From: Sycon ciliatum
Taxonomy: Eukaryota > Porifera > Calcarea > Leucosolenida > Sycettidae
DNA: 64,000 bases
Assembly (NCBI RefSeq): GCF_964019385.1
Contig: NC_088654.1
Location: 23,219,522 to 23,283,521, forward strand
Direction of reading: 5' to 3'
A model generated the notes under the pieces. The model worked only from the letters and a program-made list of their open reading frames with translations, did not search any database and was not told where the DNA came from. Position numbers and translations under genes: made by a program. Positions 4,516 through 64,000 of the stretch are shown one piece after another (the first letter of the stretch is position 1; each line of letters opens with the position of its first letter).

Positions 4516-5460
4516 TGTGTATCCTTGGGCGTGGACCAGTCAGGCTGCCGCTTCCGTTTACTCTTGAGGAATGCTCTTGCAGCTACATGTACAGCCTGCC
4601 AAGCGTTCCTGACACTGTTACACTAAGGGAAAACATCCATATGGGGAGTCGGGGACAGCATATTCAAGAAATGGACGGACATTGCATTTATACAGTAAAT
4701 TCGCTGTACCGTGAGGGAGAATATTGACATGCGGCACAAGAGAAATACGCGGCCACGGAATTTATTCGTAATGCTTTGTATGTGTTAAATGATGGGGTTA
4801 GGATGAAACCCATGTGTCTATGGGAAGAAGGCTGAGACAGTAACCATGGTAACGTATCATGCATCAAAGACCTAGTACCGTCGTCGACATGGAAATCCGG
4901 TCGCACGTCTAGCGGCCCCAGGGCGCTGGTCATGCAGCCATGGGTAAGCAGTACATACATGCATGACATTAATATTATGCTGGTCGCACCGGATCAACAT
5001 GATTGTGCACTGTTCTGTAGGTGCTAAAGGGCGCCGGCCCCGGTCAATCGACTGGATTTCCATGTACGGATCCGCGACAGTACATTACTCATGGGTCTGC
5101 GAAATGGTACGTGACACACTTGGTCACCAAGTAGTTGGTGGTGTTGAACAGAGCCTCAGCTTTTTCGGATCATTGCATCTGTCAACATCCTGTTGTAGTG
5201 AGCCGATGTGAGTTTACAACTGTAAATATACACGCCTGCTTTATTTCATCAAAAATCACGAACATGCATGACCAATTTTTCACTAGCTTCACTGACTTGT
5301 GACTCTGTGACGTGTTTGCTCTTTACAAGAAAAAGATAAGCGTTTTTACGTGTTCCACTGCATGCAACATGCTTTTAATTTTTTAATTTTTAATTTTTTT
5401 TCTTCTGTGGGCATTTACATGTACAAATTGCTGACATTGACGCGGAAATGCGATTAATAA
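4516..5460. other. unassigned sequence
   Basis: No gene or repeat boundary that I can support. A short (AAT)n tract begins at about 5455 and borders the inverted repeat that follows. Confidence 0.4.
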
Positions 5461-5478
5461 TAATAATAATTTCTTCGT

Positions 5479-5840
5479 GGAAGAGAAAAGACATATGGAT
5501 ACGAGTTAAGAGTAACTCTCCATCACTGTAACATGATACTATATACAGTCAGAAAGTGCAATAACTAGGCACAAAACTGACAGAGTACTGAAACATTCGA
5601 CGTCCTGACACCTAGCTTCAACACATCTCCGTAGCGCTAACCGACAGCCTTCCAACTTGGAAGGTTCAAGGTTATGGAAAGACCAAAGAGGGGAAGGCAA
5701 CTACTTCAGTACTTCATTACAGAACTTCAGTACTCTGTCAGTTTTGTGCCTAGTTATTGCACTTTCTGACTGTATATAGTATCATGTTACAGTGATGGAG
5801 AGTTACTCTTAACTCGTATCCATATGTCTTTTCTCTTCCA
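5479..5840. repeat. inverted repeat, truncated copy of the 23-kb ribozyme-unit family
   Basis: Arms of about 115 bp at 5479-5594 and 5726-5840 are reverse complements, around a 131-bp spacer. The arm and spacer match the outer part of the large palindrome at 23125-24352: they share ACTCTCCATCACTGTAAC and the spacer text CTTCCAACTTGGAAGG. The continuation at 5841-5880 matches the family 3' end (TTTATGGCTCAACATCCGAG). No hammerhead core remains in this copy. Confidence 0.85.
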
Positions 5841-5919
5841 CATTTATTTATGGCTCAACATCCGAGTTTCAAATAATTTCTTCAGGCGCGCAACGGCATA
5901 GTGCATGCAGTGTGTTTAC

Positions 5920-9001: not shown

Positions 9002-9840
9002 TCACTGGATGCGTGCCTCCGCCGCCACTAGCACAGCAGGTGACTCAGGCACGGCACCACGCAGGCACATAGCACCACAACGCACCAGGGCAAACCCAAG
9101 GCGGCAGCGCAGCAAGGAGATAATCTGCGCGTATGGCTCCTTGCTCTTTTCAGCCCGGAGAGAGGCGATCCGCGTGAAAAGAGCATTGGTATGCTTGCCA
9201 TAGCCACCAGAGGCAGAAAGCACACGGGTACGAAGGAGGCACGCTCGACTTCGCGTACTCGCTGTTCGTACTCCGGCGCTTTTCCTGTTCATGGCCTCTG
9301 TAGCTAGCAGCGAGGGAGGTGGCACGATTCGAAGACGCAAAAGGGTTGAACACCCGTACATCAATAAAGATGCGCTCTAATCGGCCACCCCACACACCAC
9401 TAGCCGCAACGTCCAGCCGAGCTTGCTCCTCCGTGACAGCTGTGCGATGGCGGAAGGCCTCTCCGGTGACGGGCTGGAGGTGGGGTTCCACTGTCACGTT
9501 GTGAGCGACCTGCCTTAGAGCTCTGGCGGTGATGTCCCTGGCCTCGTTATGTGGCAGCGTCGGGAAGCCACAACGAGCACGACAGGGCGTGACTCACATT
9601 CAGCGGCTTACTGCGCACGCAGAGGCTTGGGAGCCGAGGAGGTGTCCAACCGTACCGGAGGCACAGGCCATCCCGGAAATCTCCCTTGGTGAGGGTGAAA
9701 CCATGGCGGCTGAGGGGGCGGCAGGCCAGCCAGCTGGATGCACCCTTTTCTGAGGCCAGGTCGAGAACTGGGGCCAGCTCCCGGTGATCCGAGCGAAGGG
9801 CGTGAGCCATAGACTTGGACGCGCTCCGCTTCTCCGCACG
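9002..9840 (-). pseudogene. C-terminal part of a restriction-like-endonuclease LINE protein
   Basis: Reading down the minus strand: the block GDFRDGLCLRYGWTPPRLPS, a zinc-knuckle-like stretch (C...HALSC), a short P-H-N-E-A-R-D block in another frame, then EPHLQPVTGE, ARLDVAASGVWGG, FIDVRVFNP and a basic tail with CRLGFALVR. Cys/His cluster followed by R-H-x-E/D and D...DVRV matches RT-distal restriction-like endonucleases of the PD-(D/E)XK fold, as in R2/NeSL/Hero-type LINEs; this assignment is inference from order and motifs. The copy is frameshifted near 9560 and 9200-9350. A better-preserved relative lies at 28115-28732. Confidence 0.7.
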
Positions 9841-10178
9841 AACCGTCGCCTTGACCGTAAGTAAGGTCTAACAAAATAGAAATACCTGTACTCCATTTAG
9901 ATCGTCCACGCCACCGCCGGAGGCACAGGCCATCCCGGAAATCTCCCTTGGTGAGGGTGAAACCATGGCGGCTGAGGGGGCGGCAGGCCAGCCAGCTGGA
10001 TGCACCCTTTTCTGAGGCCAGGTCGAGAACTGGGGCCAGCTCCCGGTGATCCGAGCGAAGGGCGTGAGCCATAGACTTGGACGCGCTCCGCTTCTCCGCA
10101 CGAACCGTCGCCTTGACCGTAAGTAAGGTCTAACAAAATAGAAATACTTGTACTCCATTTAGATCGTCCACGCCACCC
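9655..10178. repeat. 262-bp tandem duplication
   Basis: Bases 9655-9916 and 9917-10178 are nearly identical direct repeats. The unit holds the first part of the LINE fragment (frame SDHRELAPVLDLASEKGASS) plus about 90 bp of other sequence, so the duplication arose after the element inserted. Confidence 0.9.
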
Positions 10179-23124: not shown

Positions 23125-24352
23125 GTAGAAAGGAAAAGGACATAAGGATACGAGTTAAGAGTAACTCTCCATCACTGTAACTGGATACTATATACAGTCA
23201 GAAAGTGCAATAACTAGGCACATAACTGACAAGAGTACTGAGACATTCGCGTCCTGACACCTAGCTTCAACACATCTCCGTAGCGCTAACCGACAGCCTT
23301 CCAACTTGGAAGGTTCAAGGTTATGGAAAGATCAAAGAGGGGAAGGCAAGCGCAACGAAAACGAGCAAAAGCTACAGTCCCAACGGAACAAAGAATGTCG
23401 ATTGTTACTGGACGATGACGAGACCAGTACGAAATTTGACAAAGCGGTCTAACTACAATTCGAAGCAGCAAAGCAGCACACCACCCAACTTGGGTGGGTC
23501 ATAAATATCAAAGATAAGTTAAGAAAGGGGAAGCTTTGCGAAAACGAATTGTACAAGCCGAAAGCCAAACTCCTACAGTACTCCTCATGCATGACATTGT
23601 GATGGACTAGTTGACTACAAAACAAGTTGTTTCATACGACGTACGTTTCGCCGTATGGTTCGTGACGGCTCATCAGGTGTGCAATTTGAAACTCGGATGT
23701 TGAGCCATAAATAAATGTAGAAAGGAAAAGGACATAAGGATACGAGTTAAGAGTAACTCTCCATCACTGTAACTGGATACTATATACAGCCAGAAAGTGC
23801 AATAACTAGGCACATAACCATACAGCGAAACGTACGTCGTGTGAAACAACTTGTTTTGTAGTCAACTAGTCCATCACAATGTCATGCATGAGGAGTACTG
23901 TAGGAGTTTGGCTTTCGGTTTGTACAATTCGTTTTCGCAAAGCTTCCCCTTTCTTAACTTATCTTTGATATTTATGACCCACCTAAGTTGGGTGGTGTGC
24001 TGCTTTGCTGTTTCGAATTGTAGTTAGACCGCTTTATCAAATATCGTACTGGTCTCGTCATCGTCCAGTAACAATCGACATTCTTTGTTCCGTTGGGACT
24101 GTAGCTTTTGCTCGTTTTCGTTGCGCTTGCCTTCCCCTCTTTGGTCTTTCCATAACCTTGAACCTTCCAAGTTGGAAGGCTGTCGGTTAGCGCTACGGAG
24201 ATGTGTTGAAGCTAGGTGTCAGGACGTCGAATGTCTCAGTACTCTTGTCAGTTATGTGCCTAGTTATTGCACTTTCTGACTGTATATAGTATCCAGTTAC
24301 AGTGATGGAGAGTTACTCTTAACTCGTATCCTTATGTTCTTTTCCTTTCTAC
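23125..24352. repeat. 1.2-kb near-perfect palindrome (inverted dimer of ribozyme unit)
   Basis: Arms 23125-23660 and 23816-24352 (536 and 537 bp) are near-identical reverse complements. The 155-bp spacer contains the hammerhead and an extra partial copy of the unit's 3' end (23717-23815). On the minus strand this reads: 3' end of one unit, hammerhead, then a full unit, a head-to-tail junction. The plus-strand unit starts inside the hammerhead at 23816. (ATT)n lies outside both ends. No reverse transcriptase is encoded. Confidence 0.92.
23633..23681 (-). ncRNA. hammerhead ribozyme at palindrome centre
   Basis: On the minus strand: CACAC, core CTGATGA, stem II GCCGT-loop-ACGGC with a 10-base loop, GAA, stem III ACGTACGT, cleavage base C17, then GTATG. 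Stem I pairs 4 of 5. The plus-strand arm at 23839 has GTGTG, which would pair perfectly with CACAC. All core bases are intact. Confidence 0.85.
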
Positions 24353-24469
24353 ATTTATTTATGGCTCAACATCCGAGTTTCAAATTATTATTATTATCTT
24401 TATGATGAAGAAAGGTAAAGGACAAAATGTTACGAGTTACTATATTGGCTCACCATCCGAGTTCAAATT

Positions 24470-24600
24470 ATTATCTTTATTTGAGGAATGACCCAGAGGC
24501 AGGTAGCCTATCGAGGGGTTCTCCACTTGTGCGATATTGAATAGGTAGCATAACAGGGGGGGGGGGTAGAATAAATAGCTAGACACATGGAATGAGACAA
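24470..24600 (-). repeat. LINE 3' tail fragment, interrupted by a younger LINE
   Basis: Read on the minus strand it contains CCCCTCGATAGGCTACCTGC, then TGGGTCATTCC, like the tails at 6565 and 43730. The LINE at 24604-27056 inserted directly beside it. Confidence 0.65.
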
Positions 24601-24602
24601 TA

Positions 24603-26795
24603 ATGTCCCTAGCAACGGTTGTGCCCACTGATATTAGTGACCACAGCGCTGTGGAAGCCTTTATTCAGCTTGCCGTTGACGTTCCACCCGCGTCATCCAC
24701 GACGTCGCGGCTGACCAGGAATATACGTGGCGTTGACATTAACTCTTTTCGGCAAGATATCCTTGAGGCTTCTCTACATGATTTTTCGGATCACAATGAT
24801 GTAAATCACATGTGGAAAGAGTGGCACACTAAGTTCCTGTACGTTTTGGACAAGCATGCCCCGCTGCACAACTCTAAGCCTTCCCGGAGGGCGATACCTC
24901 CCTGGTCTGACAGAGAGCTGCACCAGCTCGAACAGCGTAAACGGCGGCTGCACAGCCGTTGGCGGAAGGATAGGACAAACGGCACACTGTATGCAGAGTT
25001 TAAACAAGCACGTAGCACTGCTCGGAACGCGTATCGGCGCAAGCGAAACGAGTACTTCTCCCGTCAGTGCGAAGAAAATGTGGCCAACCCTAGGAAGTCT
25101 TGGGCCATTCTAAATGCAGTCACTGGGCGTTCACGTCGCCGCCAAGATCCTAGTTGTAGCATCAGCGAGGTGGCCGACACGTTCCACTCTATTGTCACCG
25201 ATCCCAACCGTCCTGAACAACTCTGTACCCCGCACGGTCCCGCTGGACCCGTCTCCTTGACCGAACTTGATCCTGTGACTCCTGCTGACGTCCGACGTCT
25301 CCTTGAGAAGTTGGATGCGCGGAAAGCCACAGGTAGTGACGGCATACCGGGCTCTCTGCTACAGCAGTGTGCTGACTTGCTTTCATATTCTCTTGCTGTG
25401 CTGTTCTGCACCTCGCTGAGGACTGGAACCATTCCATCCGCATTTAAATTGGCGTCTGTCGTGCCACTGTACAAGGCCGGTGACCCATCAGTCCCCACCA
25501 ACTATAGGCCTGTATCCCTTCTCCCAATAGTGTCCAAGTTGCTGGAGAGGGTAGTGCAACACCAGTTAGTTCGTCATTTGGACTTGACCCAGGCATTACC
25601 CGAAACACAATTTGCCTTCCGCAAGAAATGTTCCACGGAAGACGCCCTCTGTGTGCTGACTGATAATCTGCAGAAGGCGAGAGACAGTGGCAAGACCACA
25701 GGGCTGTGCCTATTAGACATGTCGAAGGCTTTTGATAAAGTGCACCACGACAAGTTAATTCAAGACCTCCTTGCGGTTGGAATTTCTGGAAAAGCCCTTA
25801 GTTGGTTCGTCGACTACTTGTCCGGCCGCAAGCAGCAGATCCTCATCTCGCCTTCAACCAGCCCTGCTCTGGCTTGCACCTGCGGAGTGCCCCAAGGCTC
25901 TGTTCTCGGCCCTGTCCTCTTCAGTATATACACACGCGATGTCCCTTTGGTTTCCTCGCCTGTGCCAAGTGTACAATTTGCAGACGACATAGCCCTGTAC
26001 GACTCCCAGGCCTCAGCGGCGGAAGCGTCCAGAACCCTCACCACAGCGGCAACTGCTCTGGCCGGTTGGCTGAAGTCCCGAGGCCTTATCTTGAACGCCA
26101 CCAAGAGCCAGGTTCTGACTATCTCTCCCCAGCAGCATGTACAGGAAGTAACAGTCAAAAGCGGCGACTGTCTCCTCCCCTCAGCGTCTTCTGCGCGCTA
26201 CCTCGGCGTTCACCTTGACAATCGCCTAGATTGGGACACCCATGTAAACTATGTGGTCACCAAGGTTGCCAAGAAAATTGGCGCCTTGTGGCGGGCACGC
26301 CGAAGCCTATCAAGACGCTCTCGTCAGGTGTATGTGAAGGCGGTCATAATGCCCGACCTGCTTTATGGCTCCTGCTGTTTTTCAGCCGCAATGCGAGAGG
26401 GTCAACTGAAACGACTGCAAACCACGCAAAACAGAGCCATCCGCTGTATCGATGGCAACCCGCCCCGGACAGCCATGCAGCCGCTGCTCACTGCTCACTC
26501 CCTGTACCGTGTCAGCGAGCTCTACAGGCAGAAAATATTGATCACCATCTGGCGGTGCATCAACGCCCGCATCAGCCCTGTGCTCGCCCAGCTTCTGACC
26601 CCGGCACAAGGCACCCCTACCCGCCATCAGCAGTCAAATGGCCTACTAAGCCAGGCAAACCGTAGCCGCCGCGGTCAGCGGAGATTTTCTGTTGCTGGTG
26701 CTCTGCTGTGGAACGCTCTCCCTGGTGAGGTCCGCACAATTACCCGGCTACCTGAGTTTAAGCATGCATGTGTACCATACGCCTGTAGGGAGTAG
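24603..26795 (+). pseudogene. LINE ORF2, reverse transcriptase part open, endonuclease missing
   Basis: Of 730 codons, residues 9-18 (TDISDHSAVE) are the last APE-endonuclease motif (SDH). The catalytic Asp/Glu parts upstream are lost. The palm motifs follow in order: NYRPVSLLPIVSKLLERVV (about 300), QFAFRKKCSTEDAL (about 337), LLDMSKAFDKVHHDKLI (about 368), GVPQGSVLGPVLFSIYTRDV (about 435) and FADDIALYDS (about 465), then YLGVHLDNRLDW and a C-terminal GALLWNALPGEVR. The reading frame is uninterrupted, so the copy is young, but it cannot move by itself without the endonuclease. The first ATG lies at the truncation point and is probably not a natural start. Confidence 0.88.
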
Positions 26796-28732: not shown

Positions 28733-28751
28733 GGCTTACATTATTATTATT

Positions 28752-29168
28752 ATAGCAATAAAAACTGCTTTATGGCAGTTTTCTAAAAAAAGTTATTGTG
28801 TTCTAGTCCATGGACCCCGTCTAAAAAGTAAGAAATTAACAAAATGTGATAGCCGAAAGTTAAAATTTCACACAAAACCTCACAATAATCACAACACTTG
28901 AAATGCTGCTTTCAACACTAAACTTGTACTGCACCAACAATTGGCAACATGCATGTCATGCATGCATAGGAAAGAGGATCACGAGGGGAAAAGGTCTTCT
29001 ACATGTAGCTTTTCATTCTGTGTGTGTGATTATTGTGAGGTTTTGTGTGAAATTTTAACTTTCGGCTATCACATTTTGTTAATTTCTTACTTTTTAGACG
29101 GGGTCCATGGACTAGAACACAATAACTTTTTTTAGAAAACTGCCATAAAGCAGTTTTTATTGCTATAA
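28752..29168. repeat. palindrome with about 147-bp arms
   Basis: Arms 28752-28898 and about 29020-29168 are nearly identical reverse complements, with a spacer of about 120 bp. (ATT)n lies at the left border. No hammerhead core was found. Confidence 0.88.
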
Positions 29169-29169
29169 T

Positions 29170-44928: not shown

Positions 44929-46323
44929 AGCTTATACATGTAGACCTCTACATTGTCTGAGCGAATGAACCAGATTTTGTGACGTCATTGCTGGAAGGTT
45001 GAGGTGAGGCCAGAAGAACGTCTTAGGTAGAGAGCGTATTTGCACCCACTGTCTAGTCGATTTTGTGGATCGCACATGAAATGGATACACAGACAAAGCA
45101 GGCCAAGTACATGAGAGAGTGGACGATGTGCGGATCGACACGGCCTGCGGGTACTTCATTAAAGTTACCCGTGACATAACTAGGATAAAAGTTAATCACT
45201 GCAAAAACATTGCCAAGTATGTGAGCACTTTGGACTTGACAGAAGAGTGCACGGGCGACGTTGACAAAACATACTGCGGTGACTGTCACTATCATGACAG
45301 CAGGGCACATCGCACGCAGCATTGCAGATCGTGTCGAATTGCGCATCATAATATTGCAAAATTGCTCCTGTGCATGCAAGTGGATTTCATTGCACTTCTC
45401 AGTTTGGGAAATGCTCGATTATGACAATTCTCCGTGTGAGTGCACTAGCCCTGAACAGACATGTAGGTGAACCGTTTGTGGTGTCTCATAGCCTACCTCA
45501 CGACCTTCTGCTTCCTTTCTTCATCACTTGTATCTTGCAGGTATATCATCCCGTGACGACCACATTGAAGTCTGAATTTGAAGTGTGAAGATGCTTCAGC
45601 AACCACATCGTACTTTTCCATTGCTTTCAAGGCATTGTGCTTCTACTGTGCATGTGTGTAACTTGTGGGGTAAACATGTGATGACATTGTATGCTGGCGA
45701 CACGGTCAGATGTTCATGCGTCTAATGTACACCTGCATGTTATGCATTGAAAAGGATTTGCCACTTGCGATCCTGGGACGAGTATCAGGTCCGCTTTGTC
45801 CTGTGTGGGCTGTATCAGATTGCTGTTCACTTCTCTATCTGTTGGATATGTGACTTTCTGCAAGTTTCTGGTGTATGATGGCCACGTCCTTGCTTGTCAC
45901 TTTGTATGATATTACATTCTGTATTCGCTGCTTCCATGGCATGGTCTGTAAACTGCAATCCTTGGGCAAATGTCATGTTTGCTATGTTGTGCTTTGGCCG
46001 TCAGCTTGTCTACACGCTGTAGTTGAATTATTTTTGTTTCACAACTGACTTCCTCAAGTACGGTGGCCACTGCTTTGCATGGCATTATACATGAAGAATT
46101 TCCTGTTTGTGTCGTGTGCATGTGCGTATGTGTGCGTGGCCACGTGTGTGTGCCGTGTGCATACACATGTTTGTGTATCTGTGTTCGGGGTAGCGAGGCG
46201 GAGAGGGCTGGTATGTATCAGTGTGTTATTGCAGTTGCATGGCTACATACAGTACATCGCGCGCGTGCTCAACATGTTTACCTTCGGGGTTGGGGTGGGG
46301 AGGGAACGGAAAAAGAGCTGAAA
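44929..46323. other. unassigned sequence
   Basis: Several short plus-strand frames (45119-45424, 46063-46335) lack recognisable domains. The region could contain introns or UTR of a gene whose last exon may be at 47368. Confidence 0.35.
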
Positions 46324-46800
46324 TTATCCATATAAAAATCGCTCTGTGAGCGGTTCTGAAAAACCTTTACTGGTACTGCCCCGTCGTAAAAGTAAGAAAT
46401 TAGAACTGGCCCATTGTCCCCCCAAATGCGAACTGATCCACCTAAATCGCGAATGACGGGACCCGAACGCACCAGTAGCACGAGGTTCCTACCTGTGGAT
46501 GCAGATGGGGACGTTGGTCCGGACCAAAGGCCATGTACTGTACTAGCGGTAGGCTTCCCTATCAAAATAATAAATTCTACGTACTGCTACTACTGGTGTT
46601 ACCCTATGATAATTGCCGTGATCCTGTGCCCTCCCGACCTCGTGCTACTGGTGCATTCGGGTCCCGTCATTCGCGATTTAGGTGGATCAGTTCGCATTTG
46701 GGGGGACAATGGGCCAGTTCTAATTTCTTACTTTTACGACGGGGCAGTACCAGTAAAGGTTTTTCAGAACCGCTCACAGAGCGATTTTTATATGGATAAT
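46324..46800. repeat. palindrome with about 162-bp arms
   Basis: Arms 46324-46485 and 46637-46800 are near-identical reverse complements (TTATCCATATAAAAATCGCT at the outer edge). The spacer is 151 bp. No hammerhead core. Confidence 0.88.
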
Positions 46801-50979: not shown

Positions 50980-52929
50980 TAAAGGGGAAGTTAAGGCAAA
51001 AATTAAAATTTCACCAGTTGTAGTCTTCGGGGTACTGAGTCGAATGGTCTTGGTCCGAGGAAGCTGAGACGCTCCCTTCCTACTTGAATCCCAATCGAAC
51101 TCGCGCACTTCCACCGAAACTGGGTGACTGCGCCCTACGAGATGGGGATTTGTATGCAAAATGTCACTAAAAGCGCCATTTCGTTCTTATAAAAGCACGG
51201 ATGACCGCGATTGACACATATGTTGTAGTCTTTTGGACGCTGAGTCGACTGGTTTTGGTCCGAAAAGGCTGCGATGCAGCGTTCCGCCTTTATTCCCAAT
51301 CGAACATGGTTGAACAAGCGGTCACGTGCTCCTGCGTACGCCAGTCACCTGGTCACCGTGCCTGCAGGGTACAACTTACTAGCCTGTTTGACCTTTTTTG
51401 GGTGCAGTCCTGTCACTCGAGTTGAACTCGAGTTGAACCTTGGTGTGAAAGTAATTGTCACCTGCTGGCGTGGTGACCAGGTGATTTGGGCACCCAGGAG
51501 CACGTGACCACTTGTTCAACCATGTTCGATTGGGAATAAAAGAGGAACGCTGCATCGCAGCCTTTTCGGACCAAAACCAGTCGACTCAGCGTCCAAAAGA
51601 CTACAACATATGGGCCAATCGCGGTCATCCGTGCTTTAATAAGAACGAAATGGCACTTTTAGTGACATTTTGCATACAAATCCCCATCTCGTAGGGCGCA
51701 GTCACCCAGTTTCGGTGGAAGTGCGCGAGTTCGATTGGGATTCAAGTAGGAAGGGAGCGTCTCAGCTTCCTCGGACCAAGACCATTCGACTCAGTACCCC
51801 GAAGACTACAACTGGTGAAAAAAAAAAGGGGAAGTTAAGGCAAAAATTAAAATTTCACCAGTTGTAGTCTTCGGGGTGCTGAGTCGAATGGTCTTGGTCC
51901 GAGAAAGCTGAGACGCTCCCTTCCTACTTGAATCCCAATCGAACTCGCGCACTTCCACCGAAACTGGGTGACTGCGCCCTACTAGATGGGGATTTGTATG
52001 CAAAATGTCACTAAAAGCGCCGTTTCGTTCTTATAAAAGCACGGATGACCGCGATTGGTCCATATGTTGTAGTCTTTTGGACGCTGAGTCGACTGGTTTT
52101 GGTCCGAAAAGGCTGCGATGCAGTGTTCCTCCTTTATTCCCAATCGAACATGGCTGAACAAGCGGTCACGTGCTCCTGGGTGCCCAAATCACCTGGTCAC
52201 AACGCCAGCAGGCGACAACTTTCACACCAAGGTTCAACTCGAGTTCAACTCGAGTGACAGGACTGCACCCAAAAAAGGTCAAACAGGCTAGTAAGTTGTA
52301 CCCTGCAGGCACGGTGACCAGCTGACTGGTGTACGCAGGAGCACGTGACCGCTTGTTCAACCATGTTCGATTGGGAATAAAGGAGGAACGCTGCATCGCA
52401 GCCTTTTCGGACCAAAACCAGTCGACTCAGCGTCCAAAAGACTACAACATATGGGCCAATCGCGGTCATCCGTGCTTTTATAAGAACGAAACGGCGCTTT
52501 TAGTGACATTTTGCATACAAATCCCCATCTAGTAGGGCGCAGTCACCCAGTTTCGGTGGAAGTGCGCGAGTTCGATTGGGATTCAAGTAGGAAGGGAGCG
52601 TCTCAGCTTTCTCGGACCAAGACCATTCGACTCAGCACCCCGAAGACTACAACTGGTGAAATCCCTAGTAAAATAAATAAAATAATAATAATAATAATAA
52701 ATTTTAATTTTTGCCTTAACTTCCCCTTTAACTTCCCCTTTAAAGGGGAAGTTAAAAAAAATTAAAATTTCACCAGTTGTAGTCTTCGGGGTGCTGAGTC
52801 GAATGGTCGTGGTCCGAGGAAGCTGAGACGCTCCCTTCCTACTTGAATCCCAATCGAACTCGCGCACTTCCACCGAAACTGGGTGACTGCGCCCTACGAG
52901 ATGGGGATTTGTATGCAAAATGTCACTAA

Positions 52930-53731
52930 GGCTGTACTCACACTACTTGAAAAACCGCATACAAGTGACTTATGTGTGAATGTTGCCACGGTGACGGTTG
53001 CGAAAATGAAAAAAGCCCTTGAAAGCCGCTTGAAAGGTTTCAGCGGAAACGGAACCCTCTTCTACGAGGTTTTTTGCTTTCAAGCCGTTTGGAAAGCTGT
53101 GTGAGGTCAGGAGGCCGGAGTACTATTGTACCTTGAAAGGCTCCAGAATAATTTTCATGCTTTGTTTCCTCGTGCGTGGTCGTACTGCTCCTGTACATAT
53201 ACTTGTAGTTTCCTTTTTTGCCTGTCATTTCTGAATTCTGTGGTGTTTTTTCCGAGTATTTTCCGTCTTCTTTCTTCCAGTAGCTTCCCGTTGTTTTGAT
53301 TGCCGTTTCTGTCGCATTTCTTTTGTACCATTGCTTTTGTACCGACATCATGCCTCGCGTAGTGTTTTCTGACGACTTGGAGAAGAAGCTCATCGAGCTG
53401 TGGAGAGAAACCTCTTCATCCGTCGACGTCGACGATGTGCTACTTCTTCGCGAGGCATGGCGAATCCAAGCAAGATATAACTGTTTCTATTTTTCTCATG
53501 AACTGAAAATTTCATATAAGTTGATCGAGCGCAAACAAATTGAAGGAACGCAGCCTCGGGATTTGCAAAACTACCACATGGCAATCATGTTTCTCCATGG
53601 TAATTTGCTGACAAAAAATGTTTCAAGTCGTCACTGGAGTGCAGTGTGCTTGGAAAGGCTTTTTCAAGTACTTTTGTCTAGTTTTGGACGCGACATTCGC
53701 GTCAAACTTTCAAGTAGTGTGAGTACAGCCT
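52930..53731. mobile_element. Harbinger-like element inside third unit
   Basis: GGCTGTACTCACACTACTTG is mirrored at the right end (CAAGTAGTGTGAGTACAGCC) and flanked by TAA on both sides (52927-52929, 53732-53734). The host unit's sequence TGTCACTAA/AAGCGCC is split there while the two other units are whole, confirming insertion. Confidence 0.82.
53350..53600 (+). pseudogene. possible MADF/Myb-like fragment
   Basis: From the ATG at 53350 the frame begins MPRVVFSDDLEKKLIELWRE and turns into non-conserved sequence within 30 residues. The acidic-hydrophobic EKKLIELWRE start resembles MADF/Myb-like proteins that PIF/Harbinger elements encode beside their transposase, which fits its position inside such an element. 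Only a start remains. Confidence 0.4.
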
Positions 53732-54263
53732 TAAAGCGCCATTTCGTTCTTATAAAAGCACGGATGACCACGATTGACCCATATGTTGTAGTCTTTTGGA
53801 CGCTGAGTCGACTGGTTTTGGTCCGAAAAGGCTGCGATGCAGCGTTCCGCCTTTATTCCCAATCGAACATGGTTGAACAAGCGGTCACGTGCTCCTGCGT
53901 ACGCCAGTCACCTGGTCACCGTGCCTGCAGGGTACAACTTACTAGCCTGTTTGACCTTTTTTGGGTGCAGTCCTGTCACTCGAGTTGAACTCGAGTTGAC
54001 CCTTGGTGTGAAAGTTTTGTCACCTGCTGGCGTGGTGACCAGGTGATTTGGGCACCCAGGAGCACGTGACCAAGACCATTCGACTCAGCACCCCGAAGAC
54101 TACAACTGGTGAAATTTTAATTTTTGCCTTAACTTCCCCTTTAACGCGCACCCCCAATCTTCGTTGAAGTACATGCATTTCATATTCGGAGCATAGTGCG
54201 CACCTGCGATTTAGGGCCTAAAATAGCACATTTAAAGTGCGCACTATACTCTGGAAAATACGG

Positions 54264-55313: not shown

Positions 55314-58055
55314 TTACAATCGGAGCAATTCAATCATCTGGAGAGCACATTCAGGATCATCTACCAGCGGCCGTAGCTCGGACACCAACCTGCTGTTATC
55401 CCCATACTCTGGAGGGAAGCAGAGCACACTAAGCTTGCTACACTGGCGAACAGCCTGTACGAACTGGGCTAGTACACGTCGTTCCTCCGATCTAGGACCA
55501 TACGTGAAGGAATACCCTGTGACATACAGTACTTCCAGGTTCCTGTTAGAATGGAGAATTTCCAGAATGGACGTGAGCGGCACATCAGCACAGTACTCAC
55601 GGTATAACAAGGAAAGTGAAACAAACCGCAAATTCCTACATGAACTCAGCGCTCGGCAGACCAAAGCAAAGCCGTCAGTGCCGACTTTATTCAAATCTAA
55701 ATCCACATGCTCCAGGCTGGACGATGCGGACAAAATGGCTGATGAAAAGACATTACCATCGGTACAGGGATTCCCTTGCAAATTGAGCACACGTACATGT
55801 GTGTAGTGTGCCAAGCCATTAAGAATGCAGCGCATAGCAGTGCTGGGTAACCTACACTCATCAAGGCGCACTTCCTGCACGTCCACACAAAAATGGGTTG
55901 TGAGGAAATGAGCAATGGCATTGCAATCTAACAGGCTGAGGCTCACATAAAGAAAATTCAGAGAAAAGATCTGAGAGAAGAATGAACAATGGCCATTACA
56001 AGATGACGTACCTTGATACTGGCAGTGCTCTAGATAAGCTACTAACAAATCAGCTAGGCAACGGCGTTCTCCCCCGTAAAGTGTAGGAGGCCGTATGGGT
56101 GCGGCAGTAGCAGCCGGGGCAGCTCCAGGTGCTGATGGTGTCGATATCTCCGATGTTGCGCCTGTCATCGCATGCTGCTCACAATGCGATGCGGTCGCGG
56201 GATCCACTTTACGTACAGCCGACAGCAACACCTCTGCACTCGCCTCCGCTGCCTCGTTCTTCCATATGCTTACAAGAGTATCCAGGTACAAGTCGTCCGT
56301 CAACTCCCTGCCTCGCGGCAGAGCATTGTCGACACGCTGACGACCACGGCCTTGCCCGGCGGTGCCAACCAGCAGCTGATCGGCGAGCTCTTTCATCTTT
56401 TCAACTGACAGCGCCGATTTCAGCACCGCATGGATACGGTCCACGTCGTTGCTTTGCTTGGTTGGCTGAGAACGGCTCACAATGTCGTCGAGCAGGCGTG
56501 TATCAGTCTGGCTGCATGCACGTTGCGTACGGTCACGGTTGCAGATTATCCGCCACAGATGCTCCATGATGGCGATTGCTGGCTTTGGAGGCGCGAGCGC
56601 GATCAGGAAACGCCAGAACATAGTCATGTGACCGCTGTAATGGCCGACTCTCCTCACCAGCCACGCAGCGTCGTTCTCGTCGTTCAGCATCTCGCTAGAC
56701 ACGTACCAGGCCGCCAAGAACTCCTGAATGGACAAGTGAGCAAATCGATATTGCCGGTCTTCTGTTGAGCTGGTGCTCTTGTACGCCATCAGCAATCCTA
56801 ATTCAATGGCAACCGCGCTTAGTTCTGCCGAAATGACATCCTCCTCGTTGAATACCATCTTTTGCTGAGCTAGCATAGATAGTGCAAAACCAGATAGCTC
56901 CTTCAGCACTTTAATCTCGTCTGTCTTGATGGCGGAAAGCTTCTTGTAGCGCTTGCCCGTACGCCGTTCCATGACACGGCGGACAAGAGACTCGTACAGT
57001 CCTGTACTGGATTCCGGCAATTTACTACCGTCTCTGTCGTCCATGAACAATTCACAAGCCAGCGCAGCAAACAGAGGTGTACTCATTAGCGACATTGTGC
57101 CCTCTTGTGAGCGGAGCTGCTCCAGCATAGCCTCGCCTTTCACACCGCCCACCACTTTCTTCACGTACGTTTCAACGTTGTCTGGTGAGAATCCAACCAC
57201 CTCCACTTGCTGTTGATACTCTCCACATTGCGACAGGGTATGAGCATCAGTACATGGTCGAGACGTCACCACCACATGCATATCACCACTACGCCTTCTC
57301 AACAGTAGATCATGCATGTATTCACTGCAGTTCTCCAACTTGCACTCATCCAGCCCGTCTAGCACAATGCAAAGACGGGACTGGTTGCTGCGAAAGAACC
57401 GGGACATCTCCAGCAGCTCATCTGTCTCCACATCCAGACTGGAGAATCGACGTGCCAGCAAGTCGCACAAGCTCGTAGCAGCTTGCACCTCGGCACGTCG
57501 TAATTCCACTGCCAATACCAGATCAAACTTTCCACGCCACAGCTCACCTTTAGACCAGAGGTATTCCAGCATGATCAGAAAGATCGTGGATTTGCCACAG
57601 CCAGCGCTACCAAACGCTAGTACATTCTTTTTGTTCGCTTCCACTGGTTTCTTGGCACGCGGCTCCAGTAAACCAGAATCAGCTACCTCATGGGCACAGC
57701 CCGGGCGTGGCGCGGCCCCCTGATTGCAAGACCGCTCGCTGGTAGCGGAGAAAATATCTTCCAGTTCAATGCCACGCTCGGCCGTAGCGACCCTTTGCGG
57801 CTGAGCCTCGGAGAACAATTTCAACTGGCGTGCTCGTTCAGAAGCAGACGAAAAGGACGATGACTCGTTACTGAAAAGTTTGGAAAGTTCGTCCTTTGTC
57901 AGCAACGTCAAGTTGACAAAAATATCTTTCAATGGGATTTTGGCATCGCTGGCAAGGCCACCGCTAATCTGAATACCAGCCTTCTCAACTGCCTTAGCCA
58001 GCAAATCACGGGCAGTTCGGACAGAAGCTGGCAGCTTCTGCTCGTCGGACGCCAT
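55314..58055 (-). CDS. NACHT-LRR (NLR) innate-immune receptor-like protein
   Basis: NLRs are cytosolic sensors that bind ATP through NACHT and oligomerise. One exon; the open frame extends to an ATG at 58097, but I prefer the ATG at 58055 (MASDEQKL, G at +4), giving 913 residues. Counting from 58097: residues 1-115 hold no death-fold domain I can identify, with IELEDIF at 110-116; NACHT starts near 158 with Walker A GSAGCGKST (163-171), Walker B LCIVLDGLDE (242-251) and VVVTSRP (275-281); the winged-helix end is YRFAHLSIQEFLAAWYVS (450-467); a Pro/Ala linker with GRGRQR follows; irregular leucine-rich repeats occupy about 715-870 (VQEVRLDECRL, VRVLNLQGNPC, LEHVDLDLNKV). All ATP-binding residues are present, so it looks functional. 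It stands alone between ribozyme-bearing and palindromic repeats. The missing effector domain may be absent or encoded in upstream exons. Confidence 0.92.
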   Translation of the reverse strand: MASDEQKLPASVRTARDLLAKAVEKAGIQISGGLASDAKIPLKDIFVNLTLLTKDELSKLFSNESSSFSSASERARQLKLFSEAQPQRVATAERGIELEDIFSATSERSCNQGAAPRPGCAHEVADSGLLEPRAKKPVEANKKNVLAFGSAGCGKSTIFLIMLEYLWSKGELWRGKFDLVLAVELRRAEVQAATSLCDLLARRFSSLDVETDELLEMSRFFRSNQSRLCIVLDGLDECKLENCSEYMHDLLLRRRSGDMHVVVTSRPCTDAHTLSQCGEYQQQVEVVGFSPDNVETYVKKVVGGVKGEAMLEQLRSQEGTMSLMSTPLFAALACELFMDDRDGSKLPESSTGLYESLVRRVMERRTGKRYKKLSAIKTDEIKVLKELSGFALSMLAQQKMVFNEEDVISAELSAVAIELGLLMAYKSTSSTEDRQYRFAHLSIQEFLAAWYVSSEMLNDENDAAWLVRRVGHYSGHMTMFWRFLIALAPPKPAIAIMEHLWRIICNRDRTQRACSQTDTRLLDDIVSRSQPTKQSNDVDRIHAVLKSALSVEKMKELADQLLVGTAGQGRGRQRVDNALPRGRELTDDLYLDTLVSIWKNEAAEASAEVLLSAVRKVDPATASHCEQHAMTGATSEISTPSAPGAAPAATAAPIRPPTLYGGERRCLADLLVAYLEHCQYQGTSSCNGHCSFFSQIFSLNFLYVSLSLLDCNAIAHFLTTHFCVDVQEVRLDECRLPSTAMRCILNGLAHYTHVRVLNLQGNPCTDGNVFSSAILSASSSLEHVDLDLNKVGTDGFALVCRALSSCRNLRFVSLSLLYREYCADVPLTSILEILHSNRNLEVLYVTGYSFTYGPRSEERRVLAQFVQAVRQCSKLSVLCFPPEYGDNSRLVSELRPLVDDPECALQMIELLRL

Positions 58056-58459
58056 GGGTCGCGGGCAGATTTGCGTCCAAGTAGCTGCAAGGAGCACCAG
58101 GCAACAACGTCGTGCAAGGAGACGCTACAATTATTTTTTACTTTGCCTGCATGACAGATGATTGTACGAATCCTGGGTGGTCGGTGTGCGAGGAGGTGGT
58201 GACGGTACGTGTATAGCTCAGAACTATCCTCGGACTTTGTAGTTGTTGCGTTGTTTTTCCACCGCTACAAATCATGTATTTTTGAAGTCCTGTGGTACAT
58301 GGTGTATTATGTACCGGTACATGGTGGTGATGGGGGGGGGGGGGGGGGGGCGTAGATCCACAAGAAGAAACCCTTCTCATTACACACTGCACTGTAAAAT
58401 GAGTGAAAAATCTTTTTTTCGAAATATTTATTTCAGTACTGTGCATGTGACAGTGTCTG

Positions 58460-60019: not shown

Positions 60020-60119
60020 ATTATTATTTAAAAAGGCGACGTGGAGACAATAGTCTTAATAATGCAATGAATATAACTAAATGCGCACTCATATCACAAC
60101 CATGGGGACGAATAATGTA

Positions 60120-60155
60120 TTCCAGAACGTTTTCTTGTCACAATTATCAATGGAA
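60120..60155 (-). ncRNA. hammerhead-like motif, inactive core
   Basis: Stem I TTCCA/TGGAA is perfect, stem II TTG-TGA-CAA, GAA, stem III AACGTT and C17 are present. The core is TTGATAA instead of CTGATGA, two changes at conserved bases expected to abolish cleavage. Confidence 0.6.
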
Positions 60156-60664
60156 TTCGTGACTAAAGAGAATGATGAAACTACAATAGGATTTATACAC
60201 TTGGAGTGAAACAGCGAGGATACAAGCATAGTAAGAAAAATAGCACAAACCTAGGAACAATTTGCACAGGTAATAAACTAACTTGTTGTCTAACCCCGTG
60301 TGTCGTGAAAGTTATGATGATTCTTGGTTCAGTGTTGTTCGTTCTGCAAGTAGTTTCAAGCAGTTGAAAGTTCTAGAAGCAGTCTACATTCGCATTCGTG
60401 ATCCAAATCTTTGTAAACAAAAAGAAAATGTCACCGCACTTACGCTATTCCAGTAAATTCGCACTCACACACACTTGCACATGCATGTCCATTGTCACAC
60501 TGCACTTGCAGAATTTCCTATCATTTCTCACCTCACCTATAGTTTATTACCTGTGCAAATTGTTCCTAGGTTTGTGCTATTTTTCTTACTATGCTTGTAT
60601 CCTCACTGTTCCACTCCAAGTGTATAAATCCTATTGTAGTTTCATCATTCTCTTTAGTCACGAA

Positions 60665-60700
60665 TTCCATTGATAATTGTGACAAGAAAACGTTCTGGAA
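60665..60700 (+). ncRNA. hammerhead-like motif, inactive core
   Basis: The same motif as at 60120-60155 in the opposite arm of the palindrome, with the same two core changes, so the changes predate the inversion. Confidence 0.6.
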
Positions 60701-60756
60701 TACATTATTCGTCCCCATGGTTGTGATATGAGTGCGCATTTAGTCATATTCATTGC

Positions 60757-60760
<4 letters not shown>

Positions 60761-60800
<40 letters not shown>
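60761..60800. repeat. (ATT)n microsatellite between two ribozyme elements
   Basis: About 13 ATT units. Similar ATT runs occur at 61880-61912, 62487-62506, 63261-63272 and 63933-63957, each at an element border. Confidence 0.95.
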
Positions 60801-60944
60801 GAAAGGGTTTGCTCCCCACACCGGAGCTCGCGCTATTCCGCCGACTTTACTTGACACTTGACTGACTCACGACTGCCATCCAGAGCACACGAGAAGTCCA
60901 TCGAACCTTCGACTCGGCAAACCTGCAAGAAAGCACCACTCCCT

Positions 60945-60990
60945 GCTCAATACACAGTGTTTCGGGGAATTCACCCCTCATCAGTTGAGC
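60945..60990 (-). ncRNA. hammerhead ribozyme, inverted copy
   Basis: The exact reverse complement of the motif at 61174-61219. Confidence 0.85.
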
Positions 60991-61173
60991 TTGAGTAGGC
61001 TGAGGAAGATTGTGCCTAAAGAGCACCACTCGCGCTGCTATCTGGTGTTCACGAGGTGTTTGTCGCGCTGGAAACGGAGTGTCTCTGTAAGTTTGTATCC
61101 CTGATGATGTTTGTGCCTGGAGAGCACTATATAAGTGGTGCTCTTTAGGCACAATCTTCCTCAGCCTACTCAA

Positions 61174-61219
61174 GCTCAACTGATGAGGGGTGAATTCCCC
61201 GAAACACTGTGTATTGAGC
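61174..61219 (+). ncRNA. hammerhead ribozyme (canonical)
   Basis: GCTCAA, core CTGATGA, stem II GGGG-TGAATT-CCCC, GAA, stem III ACA-CTG-TGT, A17, TTGAGC. Stem I is a perfect 6-bp helix, stem II a perfect GC helix, and every core base is present. Predicted cleavage after 61213. Confidence 0.92.
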
Positions 61220-61650
61220 AGGGAGTGGTGCTTTCTTGCAGGTTTGCCGAGTCGAAGGTTCGATGGACTTCTCGTGTGCTCTGGATGGCAGTCGTGAGTC
61301 AGTCAAGTGTCAAGTAAAGTCGGCGGAATAGCGCGAGCTCCGGTGTGGGGAGCAAACCCTTTCTTACAATCATCGCCGAAGTCGCAACCACTACTTCGTA
61401 CTGTTGTGCCCAGCGCGGGCTTGCGACTAGTTGGTTTGGAGGTGACAGCGTTGCGAATGACCGAGGGTCCTCGACGTCTGCCTCACCGTCCAGGAGCGAC
61501 ACTGACTCGCGCTGCTATCTGGTGTTCACGAGGTGTTTGTCGCGCTGGAAACGGAGTGTCTCTGTAAGTTTGTATCCCTGATGATGTTTGTGCCTGGAGA
61601 GCACTATATAAGTGGTGCTCTTTAGGCACAATCTTCCTCAGCCTACTCAA

Positions 61651-61696
61651 GCTCAACTGATGAGGGGTGAATTCCCCGAAACACTGTGTATTGAGC
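61651..61696 (+). ncRNA. hammerhead ribozyme (canonical), second tandem copy
   Basis: Identical to 61174-61219, displaced by 477 bp. Predicted cleavage after 61690. Confidence 0.92.
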
Positions 61697-61878
61697 AGGG
61701 AGTGGTGCTTTCTTGCAGGTTTGCCGAGTCGAAGGTTCGATGGACTTCTCGTGTGCTCTGGATGGCAGTCGTGAGTCAGTCAAGTGTCAAGTAAAGTCGG
61801 CGGAATAGCGCGAGCTCCGGTGTGGGGAGCAAACCCTTTCTTACAATCATCGCCGAAGTCGCAACCACTACTTCGTAC

Positions 61879-61912
<34 letters not shown>

Positions 61913-62474
61913 GACTGGTTTGAGGGAAAGAGACAAACGGGAAAAGTCTGAAGAAAAAATTGACTGTCACCACCAGGACTCGAACCAGGGACCCTCGCTT
62001 GTAGCCAGCGATGCTCTAACCACTGAGCTATGGTGTAGTCGTCATCCCAGCAGAGGCCGTTCAACATTTTCTTCAGACTTCGTAACTCACACTTCCTGTG
62101 AATCCACACAGGCGGGTGGGACGCAGCCCTCACTGTAACCCACACACTTCACGTACAAACTAGCACGCGGGGAGCCCCAAGTCGTAAAATACTGACTGGT
62201 TTGAGGGAAAGAGACAAACGGGAAAAGTCTGAAGAAAAAATTGACTGTCACCACCAGGACTCGAACCAGGGACCCTCGCTTGTAGCCAGCGATGCTCTAA
62301 CCACTGAGCTATGGTGTAGTTGTCATCCCAGCAGAGGCCGTTCAACATTTTCTTCAGACTTCGTAACTCACACTTCCTGTGAATCCACACAGGCGGGTGG
62401 GACGCAGCCCTCACTGTAACCCACACACTTCACGTACAAACTAGCACGCGGGGAGCCCCAAGTCGTAAAATACT
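61913..62474 (-). mobile_element. tRNA-derived SINE, two tandem copies of 281 bp
   Basis: Copies 61913-62193 and 62194-62474 are almost identical. Each has on the minus strand a tRNA-like head and an unrelated body. A third start (GACTGGTTTGG) follows at 62475 before an ATT run. A decayed relative is at 10831. Confidence 0.85.
61969..62040 (-). tRNA. tRNA-like SINE head
   Basis: A box TAGCTCAGTGGTTAGAGC and B box GGTTCGAGTCC, with anticodon stem TCGCT/AGCGA. Base 33 is G instead of U and the acceptor has mismatches, so it is a SINE promoter and not a working tRNA. The next copy is at 62250-62321. Confidence 0.65.
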
Positions 62475-62556
62475 GACTGGTTTGGTTTTATTATTATTAT
62501 TATTATTCAAAGGATCTGTCGGGGAAGTGAACTGCCTGAAAAGAGAAAAAAACGCC

Positions 62557-62627
62557 AGACCCACCAGGACTCGAACCTGGGACCCTGCTTGTCATGAGCA
62601 ATGCTCTAACCACTGAGCTATGGGACC
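62557..62627 (-). tRNA. tRNA-like SINE head
   Basis: The same 71-base head as at 63110-63180, in reverse; a further identical copy is at 62862-62932. Confidence 0.65.
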
Positions 62628-63109
62628 AGGCTGAACCTAGAAGGCGCTGACAAGTTTTTCACTCCAAAGGCAGCTCACAACACGTGCCACACATACTGAT
62701 GGCACTTGGGTCTTTTTCCCTCCCCCAGGGGACCAACCACGGTCAGTTTCTGGAAACTACCAGAGGTGAAAGAAAGTGATTAAATTTGGAAAGGATTGGG
62801 AGAACTTCAAATTCAAAGGATCTGTCGGGGAAGTGAACTGCCTGAAAAGAGAAAAAACGCCAGACCCACCAGGACTCGAACCTGGGACCCTGCTTGTCAT
62901 GAGCAATGCTCTAACCACTGAGCTATGGGACCAGGCTGAACCTAGAAGGCGCTGACAAGTTTTTCACTCCAAAGGCAGGATTTCCAGAAACTGACCGTGG
63001 TTGGTCCCCTGGGGGAGGGAAAAAGACCCAAGTGCCATCAGTATGTGTGGCACGTGTTGTGAGCTGCCTTTGGAGTGAAAAACTTGTCAGCGCCTTCTAG
63101 GTTCAGCCT

Positions 63110-63180
63110 GGTCCCATAGCTCAGTGGTTAGAGCATTGCTCATGACAAGCAGGGTCCCAGGTTCGAGTCCTGGTGGGTCT
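63110..63180 (+). tRNA. tRNA-like SINE head
   Basis: A 71-base near-complete cloverleaf: acceptor GGTCCCA/TGGGTCT (one mismatch), D arm GCTC/GAGC, anticodon stem TTGCT/AGCAG, T arm CCAGG/CCTGG with TTCGAGT loop. Position 33 is A, not U, so the nominal TGA anticodon would not be presented normally. Its three copies here show it to be a SINE promoter. Confidence 0.65.
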
Positions 63181-63331
63181 GGCGTTTTTTTCTCTTTTCA
63201 GGCAGTTCACTTCCCCGACAGATCCTTTGAATTTGAAGTTCTCCCAATCCTTTCCAAATTATTATTATTATTGCAATGAAAAATATCAATTGTGCACTCA
63301 TAATCATGTATAAACAATTAAAATGAAACAA

Positions 63332-63367
63332 TTCCAGAACGTTTTCGTGTGACCATCATCAGTGGAA
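63332..63367 (-). ncRNA. hammerhead motif with weak stem II
   Basis: TTCCA, intact core CTGATGA, a 9-base stem-II segment (TGGTCACAC) that pairs poorly, GAA, AACGTT and C17, then TGGAA. Stem I is perfect. Confidence 0.6.
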
Positions 63368-63801
63368 CATCGTCACATAGCAAGAATCACTAAAACAACC
63401 AGTTATATAGCTAGAGTAACATGAAAAGAAGCGTGAGAATGCAGCACAGCTAGCGGTTATGCATAACGCGTGTAGTGTGAACCTTTGCAGTGTATCTGAG
63501 AATGGTAGCAGTAGATGAATGTGGCAGCTGTGAGTGCGTGTGAACAAAAACTGGTGAGTGTGTATTATTTAAAAAGTGTGAGTGCTACAACATTTTCTTT
63601 TTGCTTGCATAGAACAGGGTCACGTGTGCGAATATATACAGCTGCCACATTCATCTACTGCTACCATTCTCAGATACACTGCAAAGGTTCACACTGCACG
63701 CGTTATGCATAACCGCTAGCTGTGCTGCATTCTCACGCTTCTTTTCATGTTACTCTAGCTATATAACTGGTTGTTTTAGTGATTCTTGCTATGTGACGAT
63801 G

Positions 63802-63837
63802 TTCCACTGATGATGGTCACACGAAAACGTTCTGGAA
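63802..63837 (+). ncRNA. hammerhead motif with weak stem II
   Basis: The same motif in the other arm, with an identical core and stem I. Confidence 0.6.
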
Positions 63838-64000
63838 TTGTTTCATTTTAATTGTTTATACATGATTATGAGTGCACAATTGATATTTTTCATTGCTATT
63901 TTACGACTGTTGTCTCCTCGTCGGTTATTTAAATTATTATTATTATTATTATTATTCACACATATCCGCCGGATGAGTACGCGTGGACCATGCACCATGG

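Follow-up and report, generated by a model that had tools for sequence, protein, structure and literature searches.

We analysed a 64,000-nt window of contig NC_088654.1 of the calcareous sponge Sycon ciliatum (assembly GCF_964019385.1, positions 23,219,522 to 23,283,521 of the forward strand), whose genome comprises 538 Mb in 313 contigs. Towards the right end of the window lies an insertion, here called B, which has the limits that an earlier note had given it and is adjoined by similarly built elements. Its features, in window coordinates, are the following.

60801-61879, plus strand: whole family B insertion inside an (ATT)n tract, its 477-nt unit first inverted in a short run and then direct in a longer one
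60759-60800: left border and target tract, (TTA)14
61879-61912: right border and target tract, (TAT)11
60801-61030, minus strand: minus run of B, with its outer end at the short site (unit position ~153), reading inward
61028-61879, plus strand: plus run of B, with its outer end at the long site (unit position ~187) and a 34-nt tail
61214-61690, plus strand: 477-nt unit between two predicted cleavage sites
61174-61219, plus strand: type I hammerhead 1 (descriptor), CTGATGA at 61180, predicted cleavage after 61213
61651-61696, plus strand: type I hammerhead 2 (descriptor), CTGATGA at 61657, predicted cleavage after 61690
60945-60990, minus strand: hammerhead of the inverted arm, CTGATGA at 60984, predicted cleavage after 60951 on the minus strand
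61367-61400, plus strand: internal copy of the tail hairpin, CGAAGT..ACTTCG with an AC-rich loop, between two putative reverse transcription start sites
61844-61879, plus strand: tail hairpin at the long outer end of the insertion

The repeat period of the insertion is 477 bp, with a reported stretch of 300 nt at 100%, and the inverted arm is 240 nt long and 99% complementary; the minus and plus runs overlap by 3 nt at the inner joint. The two border tracts confirmed that (ATT)n stands on both sides, and the unit proved to be non-coding as previously described, since its longest ATG-started ORF has 44 aa and an ORF with RT plus GIY-YIG is absent. The unit has a G+C content of 53.7%, and its RNA is predicted to be strongly self-paired, with a minimum free energy of -201.8 kcal/mol (z -5.3) that none of 100 shuffled sequences reached.

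The hammerheads were identified with a strict type I descriptor (stem I of at least 5 bp, CUGANGA, stem II of at least 4 bp, GAA, stem III of at least 3 bp, and H17), which gave three matches in the 64-kb window and none in 200 first-order Markov windows. All three ribozymes of the earlier note, two identical copies 477 bp apart on the plus strand and one in the inverted arm, match this descriptor, and the cleavage positions it had proposed, 61213 and 61690, are the sites that the descriptor predicts. Its term "canonical" is somewhat lenient: stem III is weak, with 3 bp and a triloop, and the B ribozyme had no match to the Rfam hammerhead models, including with a 120-nt query at E ≤ 10, and did not reach the gathering score of Hammerhead_1 (RF00163).

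A genome search with the 47-nt ribozyme core, allowing up to 3 mismatches, returned 4,632 matches (2,357 forward, 2,275 reverse; control, 0), and B matches were spread over many contigs among those listed. With the B unit as query, the best 40 of 715 first-look candidates were scored, and the listed matches were grouped into 40 clusters, all of which were mapped (39 outside the window and the window copy). These loci are the best-scoring copies, a sample biased to young ones, and include runs of 6-7 units. B comprises subfamilies of 477 and 480 nt, set apart by 19 columns, none of which falls in the 77-column ribozyme region (a chance probability of about 0.04, by arithmetic). Per-position variability was 0.003-0.010 in the ribozyme region against a unit mean of 0.028, and unit positions 41-60 and 221-240 are conserved as well as the ribozyme core. 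The earlier note had named genome-wide copies lacking conserved ribozyme pairing as evidence against its reading; the part of the copies examined did not bear this out: 91 of the 126 ribozyme regions taken from the 40 loci share the same 79-nt sequence. The description of the element as retrozyme-like is borne out by the type I hammerhead, the tandem non-coding units, the thousands of dispersed cores and the retention of the core.

Scoring by script gave 41 B rows from the 40 loci, 33 with two divergent runs (minus then plus) and 8 with a single run. The same order was seen in a sample selected independently of end type: among 100 perfect cores listed on contig C1, opposite-strand neighbours within 1.5 kb were minus-plus in 16 cases and plus-minus in none. 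Most outer ends fall at one of two sites about 34 nt apart in the unit, ~153 ("short") and ~187 ("long"), and these two sites flank a small hairpin, CGAAGT CGCAACCACT ACTTCG, with an AC-rich loop. The script assigned 23 rows as long+short, 1 as short+short and 0 as long+long, and the other 17 were truncated or ended elsewhere. Two of these 17, the window copy and L028, were read as short+long from the print-out, and the short+long pair is thus found in 25 of 26 assignable rows (binomial p 4e-7; 15 of 41 unassigned), or in 24 of 25 when one of the near-duplicates L012 and L015 is removed. In L023, the single short+short row, an ATT tract separates the two runs, which may represent two insertions. 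Rows L013 and L040 contain two insertions each, and L026 has its short end behind a deletion; the counts were left as scored. L034 is a genuine departure from the pattern: it has a 13-bp duplication, but one of its outer ends (right end, near 4646) is at unit position 123, away from both usual sites. The inner joints vary in unit position, and 30 of them comprised 12 with microhomology (1-7 nt overlap), 6 blunt and 12 with filler (1-33 nt).

We also examined the target sites. The border is adjoined by (ATT)3 or (AAT)3 in 24 of the 41 B rows, compared with a background of 0.95% of window positions 100-59900. In the 17 rows outside ATT, direct repeats measured 12-14 bp in 8 rows and 6-8 bp in 3, and were absent from 6, whereas a mispaired control, combining left and right flanks from different loci, reached 12 bp in 0 of 270 cases and 6-8 bp in 21 of 270. 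At L046, a B copy lies inside an element of family F with 11-13 bp duplicated, and the insertion site is present once in two uninterrupted F copies of the window. The neighbouring elements and the F copies are listed below; PLE denotes a Penelope-like element.

60029-60760: neighbour A, a pLTR element in inverted form that belongs to the PLE family in L090; the long tail is left and the short end right
61913-62484, minus strand: neighbour C, 281-nt tRNA-bearing unit, tandem, without inversion here
62506-63258, minus strand: neighbour D, two divergent runs of a 306-nt unit that bears a tRNA, with the short end left and a 28-nt tail right
63273-63934: neighbour E, inverted PLE pLTR element, short end left, long tail right, pLTR of the intact PLE L088
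63807-63840, plus strand: minimal PLE-type hammerhead in E, with a second copy on the minus strand from 63362
5477-5873: F copy 1, an inverted element with one short and one long end and, as read from sequence, a 9-12-nt target duplication
23126-24386: F copy 2, inside (ATT)n, with the left end short and the right end long
23632-23682, minus strand: type I hammerhead of F copy 2, 22.3 bits with Rfam RF00163, below the gathering score of 34

A and E flank B on either side, with C and D between B and E. L088 is a full-length PLE with a 1006-codon open frame, the E pLTR at both ends and a minimal hammerhead in each. The Pfam matches of its frame were weak and below cut-off (RVT_1, E 4.9e-6; GIY-YIG, E 0.005) and a PDB search found no relative; 1,515 homologues were found, and most of the best 120 carry PF00078 with PF28514 and PF26215. 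In a genome search for PLE frames, 46 of 14,400 first-look candidates were scored, and further such frames were found, several of which stay open for most of their extent, with 99%, 84%, 70% and 58-67% identity to L088. By eye, neighbour A corresponds to sequence upstream of the PLE in L090, which is 70% identical to L088. All five inverted pairs scored among E copies combine a short end (260/261) with a long end; a sixth pair, adjoining a PLE frame, was left out, and the search favoured long-end copies. The tail between the two ends is DNA of a common N-terminal stretch in L088 and in 5 of 6 upstream regions, and the sixth (L094) falls short of this stretch. The tail hairpin of B was not found in L088 or in the six further upstream regions (L088 and five of the six show other tails, L094 shows none). 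By eye, B, D and the PLEs have no tail sequence in common and are alike in arrangement alone; tails other than that of B mostly fold weakly (-1.8 to -6.4 kcal/mol).

The 306-nt tRNA-like unit of D (62506-63258; loci L068-L087) mostly has paired short and long ends like B, at sites about 28 nt apart: in 25 rows, 14 were long+short, 2 long+long, 0 short+short and 9 not assignable. The D border is adjoined by (ATT)3 or (AAT)3 in 22 of 25 rows, and all three rows outside ATT have duplications of 12-13 bp. For C, no short/long end pair was seen in 20 loci and the window; in most of its runs one end falls near unit position 279-281 or 1-7 and the other varies, mostly against ATT. C seldom inverts, and one array (G000:C13:1016875-1025866) holds about 32 nearly identical 281-nt copies. 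A loose hammerhead core pattern had no match in C or D. ARAGORN (bacterial code) calls the tRNA-like units of C and D Pyl and Ser. We rejected the notion that they are ordinary tRNA genes, since the base before the anticodon is G or A rather than U, which makes decoding unlikely; the anticodon loop of the C unit has no U33. The F hammerhead is unrelated to that of B, and its region has 11 genome matches.

Several other features of the window were noted. Direct and inverted repeats, nested in one another, about 160-445 nt long and as much as 99% complementary, occupy 51008-54016, and a 262-bp tandem duplication (9655-10177, 99% alike) lies partly within a minus-strand open frame. An open frame with a NACHT domain (NLR-like) is found at 55314-58124 on the minus strand. 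The near-perfect inverted repeats at 28749-29169 and 46323-46800, perhaps small DNA transposons, have matching ends on the two sides, appear palindromic at each, and were discounted as dissimilar to B.

To compare units within insertions, we measured divergence, which was 1.58% between opposite runs of one insertion and 1.62% between units on one strand; between loci it was 4.47% with both subfamilies pooled. For 27 of 40 loci, the compared stretch has an exact match in some unit outside the locus, and because of this and the pooling of subfamilies, the likeness of units within an insertion is modest evidence and tells little of single molecules. L042 has zero mismatches between its runs in any register. 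Four units of L017 carry variants that alternate ABAB at three sites, as they would if copied from a two-unit (dimeric) circle. In L018, the place of one variant unit, the first counted from one outer end but the fifth counted from the other, suggests a multimeric template. Across 432 site counts, 56 were fixed in an insertion, 321 were private to one unit and 55 were common to some units; 30 of these 55 were judged to reflect gap placement (columns 103-105, 134 and 137), and 14 came from L031 and L032, two copies of one old duplicated locus. From such patterns of unit variants, the template of B was likely circular or multimeric.

Based on these sequence features, we consider B to be probably (at a rough probability of 0.8) a non-autonomous, non-coding ribozyme retroelement that is of the non-LTR retrozyme type and is moved by a Penelope-like enzyme. 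What the earlier note had singled out as possibly new, an inverted-plus-tandem architecture bordered by ATT, is real and family-wide, but it is better explained by Penelope-like insertion than by a new design of element: the paired ends, divergent order, duplications and ATT preference read from the sequence match the PLE signature, and the architecture is also found in PLE pLTR elements and a tRNA-bearing family of this genome. Three points hold us back from a firmer statement: L034 does not fit, unit likeness carries modest weight, and PMC11167929 found the top and bottom strands of PAc insertions in bulk to be alike in start site. Membership of B in the retrozyme class is provisional, because its circle is a putative one and its size and G+C content lie outside the published typical range.

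In the proposed cycle, a multi-unit transcript would be cut by its own hammerheads into 477-nt units, which would then be ligated into circles. A protein from a PLE would make staggered cuts in the two strands of an ATT-rich site, about 12-13 bp apart. Each 3' end would prime reverse transcription at one of the two starts flanking the tail hairpin, one at ~153 and the other at ~187; each cDNA would extend over at least one unit of the RNA template, circular or multimeric, before end joining united the two cDNAs in the middle. We tentatively offer a broader generalisation, as possible rather than probable: each PLE insertion may use both hairpin starts once, one per strand, as would be expected of two enzymes in complex with one RNA hairpin, and any small RNA bearing such a hairpin may be copyable (its unit closed by a hammerhead in B and F, or carrying a tRNA in D), in which case tRNA circles or multimers would be ribozyme-free counterparts of retrozymes.

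The same enzyme might move B in the way proposed while using a long linear multimeric transcript as the template, with the ribozyme and circles irrelevant to transposition. The displaced variant unit of L018 favours such a template, but 5' truncation of linear templates should on the whole leave short arrays, and B includes runs of 6-7 units; the identity of L042 in every register and the dimer-like alternation of L017 also argue against it, as does the ribozyme core being among the best-kept parts of the unit, though positions 41-60 and 221-240 equal it. We therefore regard a linear template as unlikely, while giving it appreciable weight. Mobilisation by a LINE through target-primed reverse transcription with twin priming appears very unlikely. 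Twin priming places one outer end at the 3' end of the RNA and leaves the other variable, whereas both outer ends lie at fixed sites in most assignable B rows, and the combination of ATT sites and paired tails matches the PLE pLTR elements of the same genome. The window does contain RT ORFs, one with an Exo_endo_phos domain and another (24579-26795), considered as a partner and set aside, with RVT_1 as its sole domain, and LINEs are named as a possible retrozyme partner in the available text of a review (PMC11722881).

The inverted joint could also have arisen if a single cDNA had snapped back and primed itself, a mechanism put forward for Penelope copies of A. vaga (PMC3846280). This would suit divergent runs that have one common sequence and the joints that are near-palindromic, such as those of L010 (113/118) and L036 (300/297); in most other copies, however, the runs end at unrelated unit positions, and the joints are a mixture of microhomology, blunt and filler types (12, 6 and 12 of 30). 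Since the outer ends use different sites and the inner stops are unrelated, two separate initiations would be needed, and we judge snap-back to be improbable. Amplification of satellite or palindromic DNA with no RNA step would account for a short unit in tandem and inverted repeats, but thousands of cores over many contigs among those listed, together with target duplications, an uninterrupted host site and fixed pairs of ends, leave it next to no likelihood. Mobilisation of B by a Penelope-like enzyme thus remains our preferred reading.

Published work on these systems is cited here from the portions of each paper that were available. Purified PAc cuts ATT on both strands in vitro, its reverse transcription starts at two adjacent internal sites that bound the genomic "tail" and lie in an AC-rich stem loop, and its ribozyme mutants still inserted (PMC11167929). 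In A. vaga, inverted pLTRs with an optional 31-bp tail at one of them were explained by self-priming (PMC3846280). PLEs are a strong partner candidate according to the retrozyme authors (PMC7229834), and a review states that metazoan retrozyme repeats have no conserved motif from which to deduce the partner retrotransposon (PMC7761336). In the accessible portions of the literature searched, no paper ties retrozyme ends to PLE starts or gives a one-short-one-long rule, although either may be in print elsewhere. As far as we searched, therefore, the evidence from sequence that would link a retrozyme-like element to PLE machinery appears new, as do the one-short-one-long end rule and a tRNA-bearing family without a hammerhead that seems to be inserted likewise. 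The insertion ends of B point to a partner class and may reveal the machinery that moves such elements in animals. They also suggest how PLEs may integrate, in the concrete terms of one hairpin with two starts that serve two strands, and on this model the inverted pLTRs and optional tail of PLE copies could arise without self-priming.

B resembles the metazoan non-LTR retrozymes (Cervera and de la Pena 2020, PMC7229834) in its type I hammerhead, dispersed tandem non-coding units from dimers upward, highly self-paired RNA and co-existing PLEs with minimal hammerheads. Its target duplications of 12-14 bp, longer than 4 bp, also fit a trait of that group. In contrast, its unit of 477-480 nt and G+C of 53.7% differ from the approximately 170-400 nt and under 50% typical of metazoan retrozymes, values that are typical rather than strict criteria, and its divergent runs with paired outer ends, often in ATT, have no counterpart in the available descriptions of PMC7229834. 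With PLEs (PAc, PMC11167929; A. vaga, PMC3846280), B shares the optional tail of 30-40 nt, inverted terminal runs, tandem units, an ATT or AT-rich target, short duplications and a hammerhead upstream of the start sites. It differs from them in having no ORF, in a tail hairpin unlike the PLE tails compared, in duplications of 12-14 bp against 8-10 bp for A. vaga Penelope (PMC3846280), and in its hammerhead, where stem II is full and stem III has 3 bp, in contrast to the minimal form of PLEs. The LTR retrozymes of plants (PMC4918200; PMC7229834) are, like B, non-autonomous ribozyme elements with a putative circular RNA, but they have a type III hammerhead and a 4 bp duplication (PMC7229834), whereas B has a type I hammerhead and a longer duplication.
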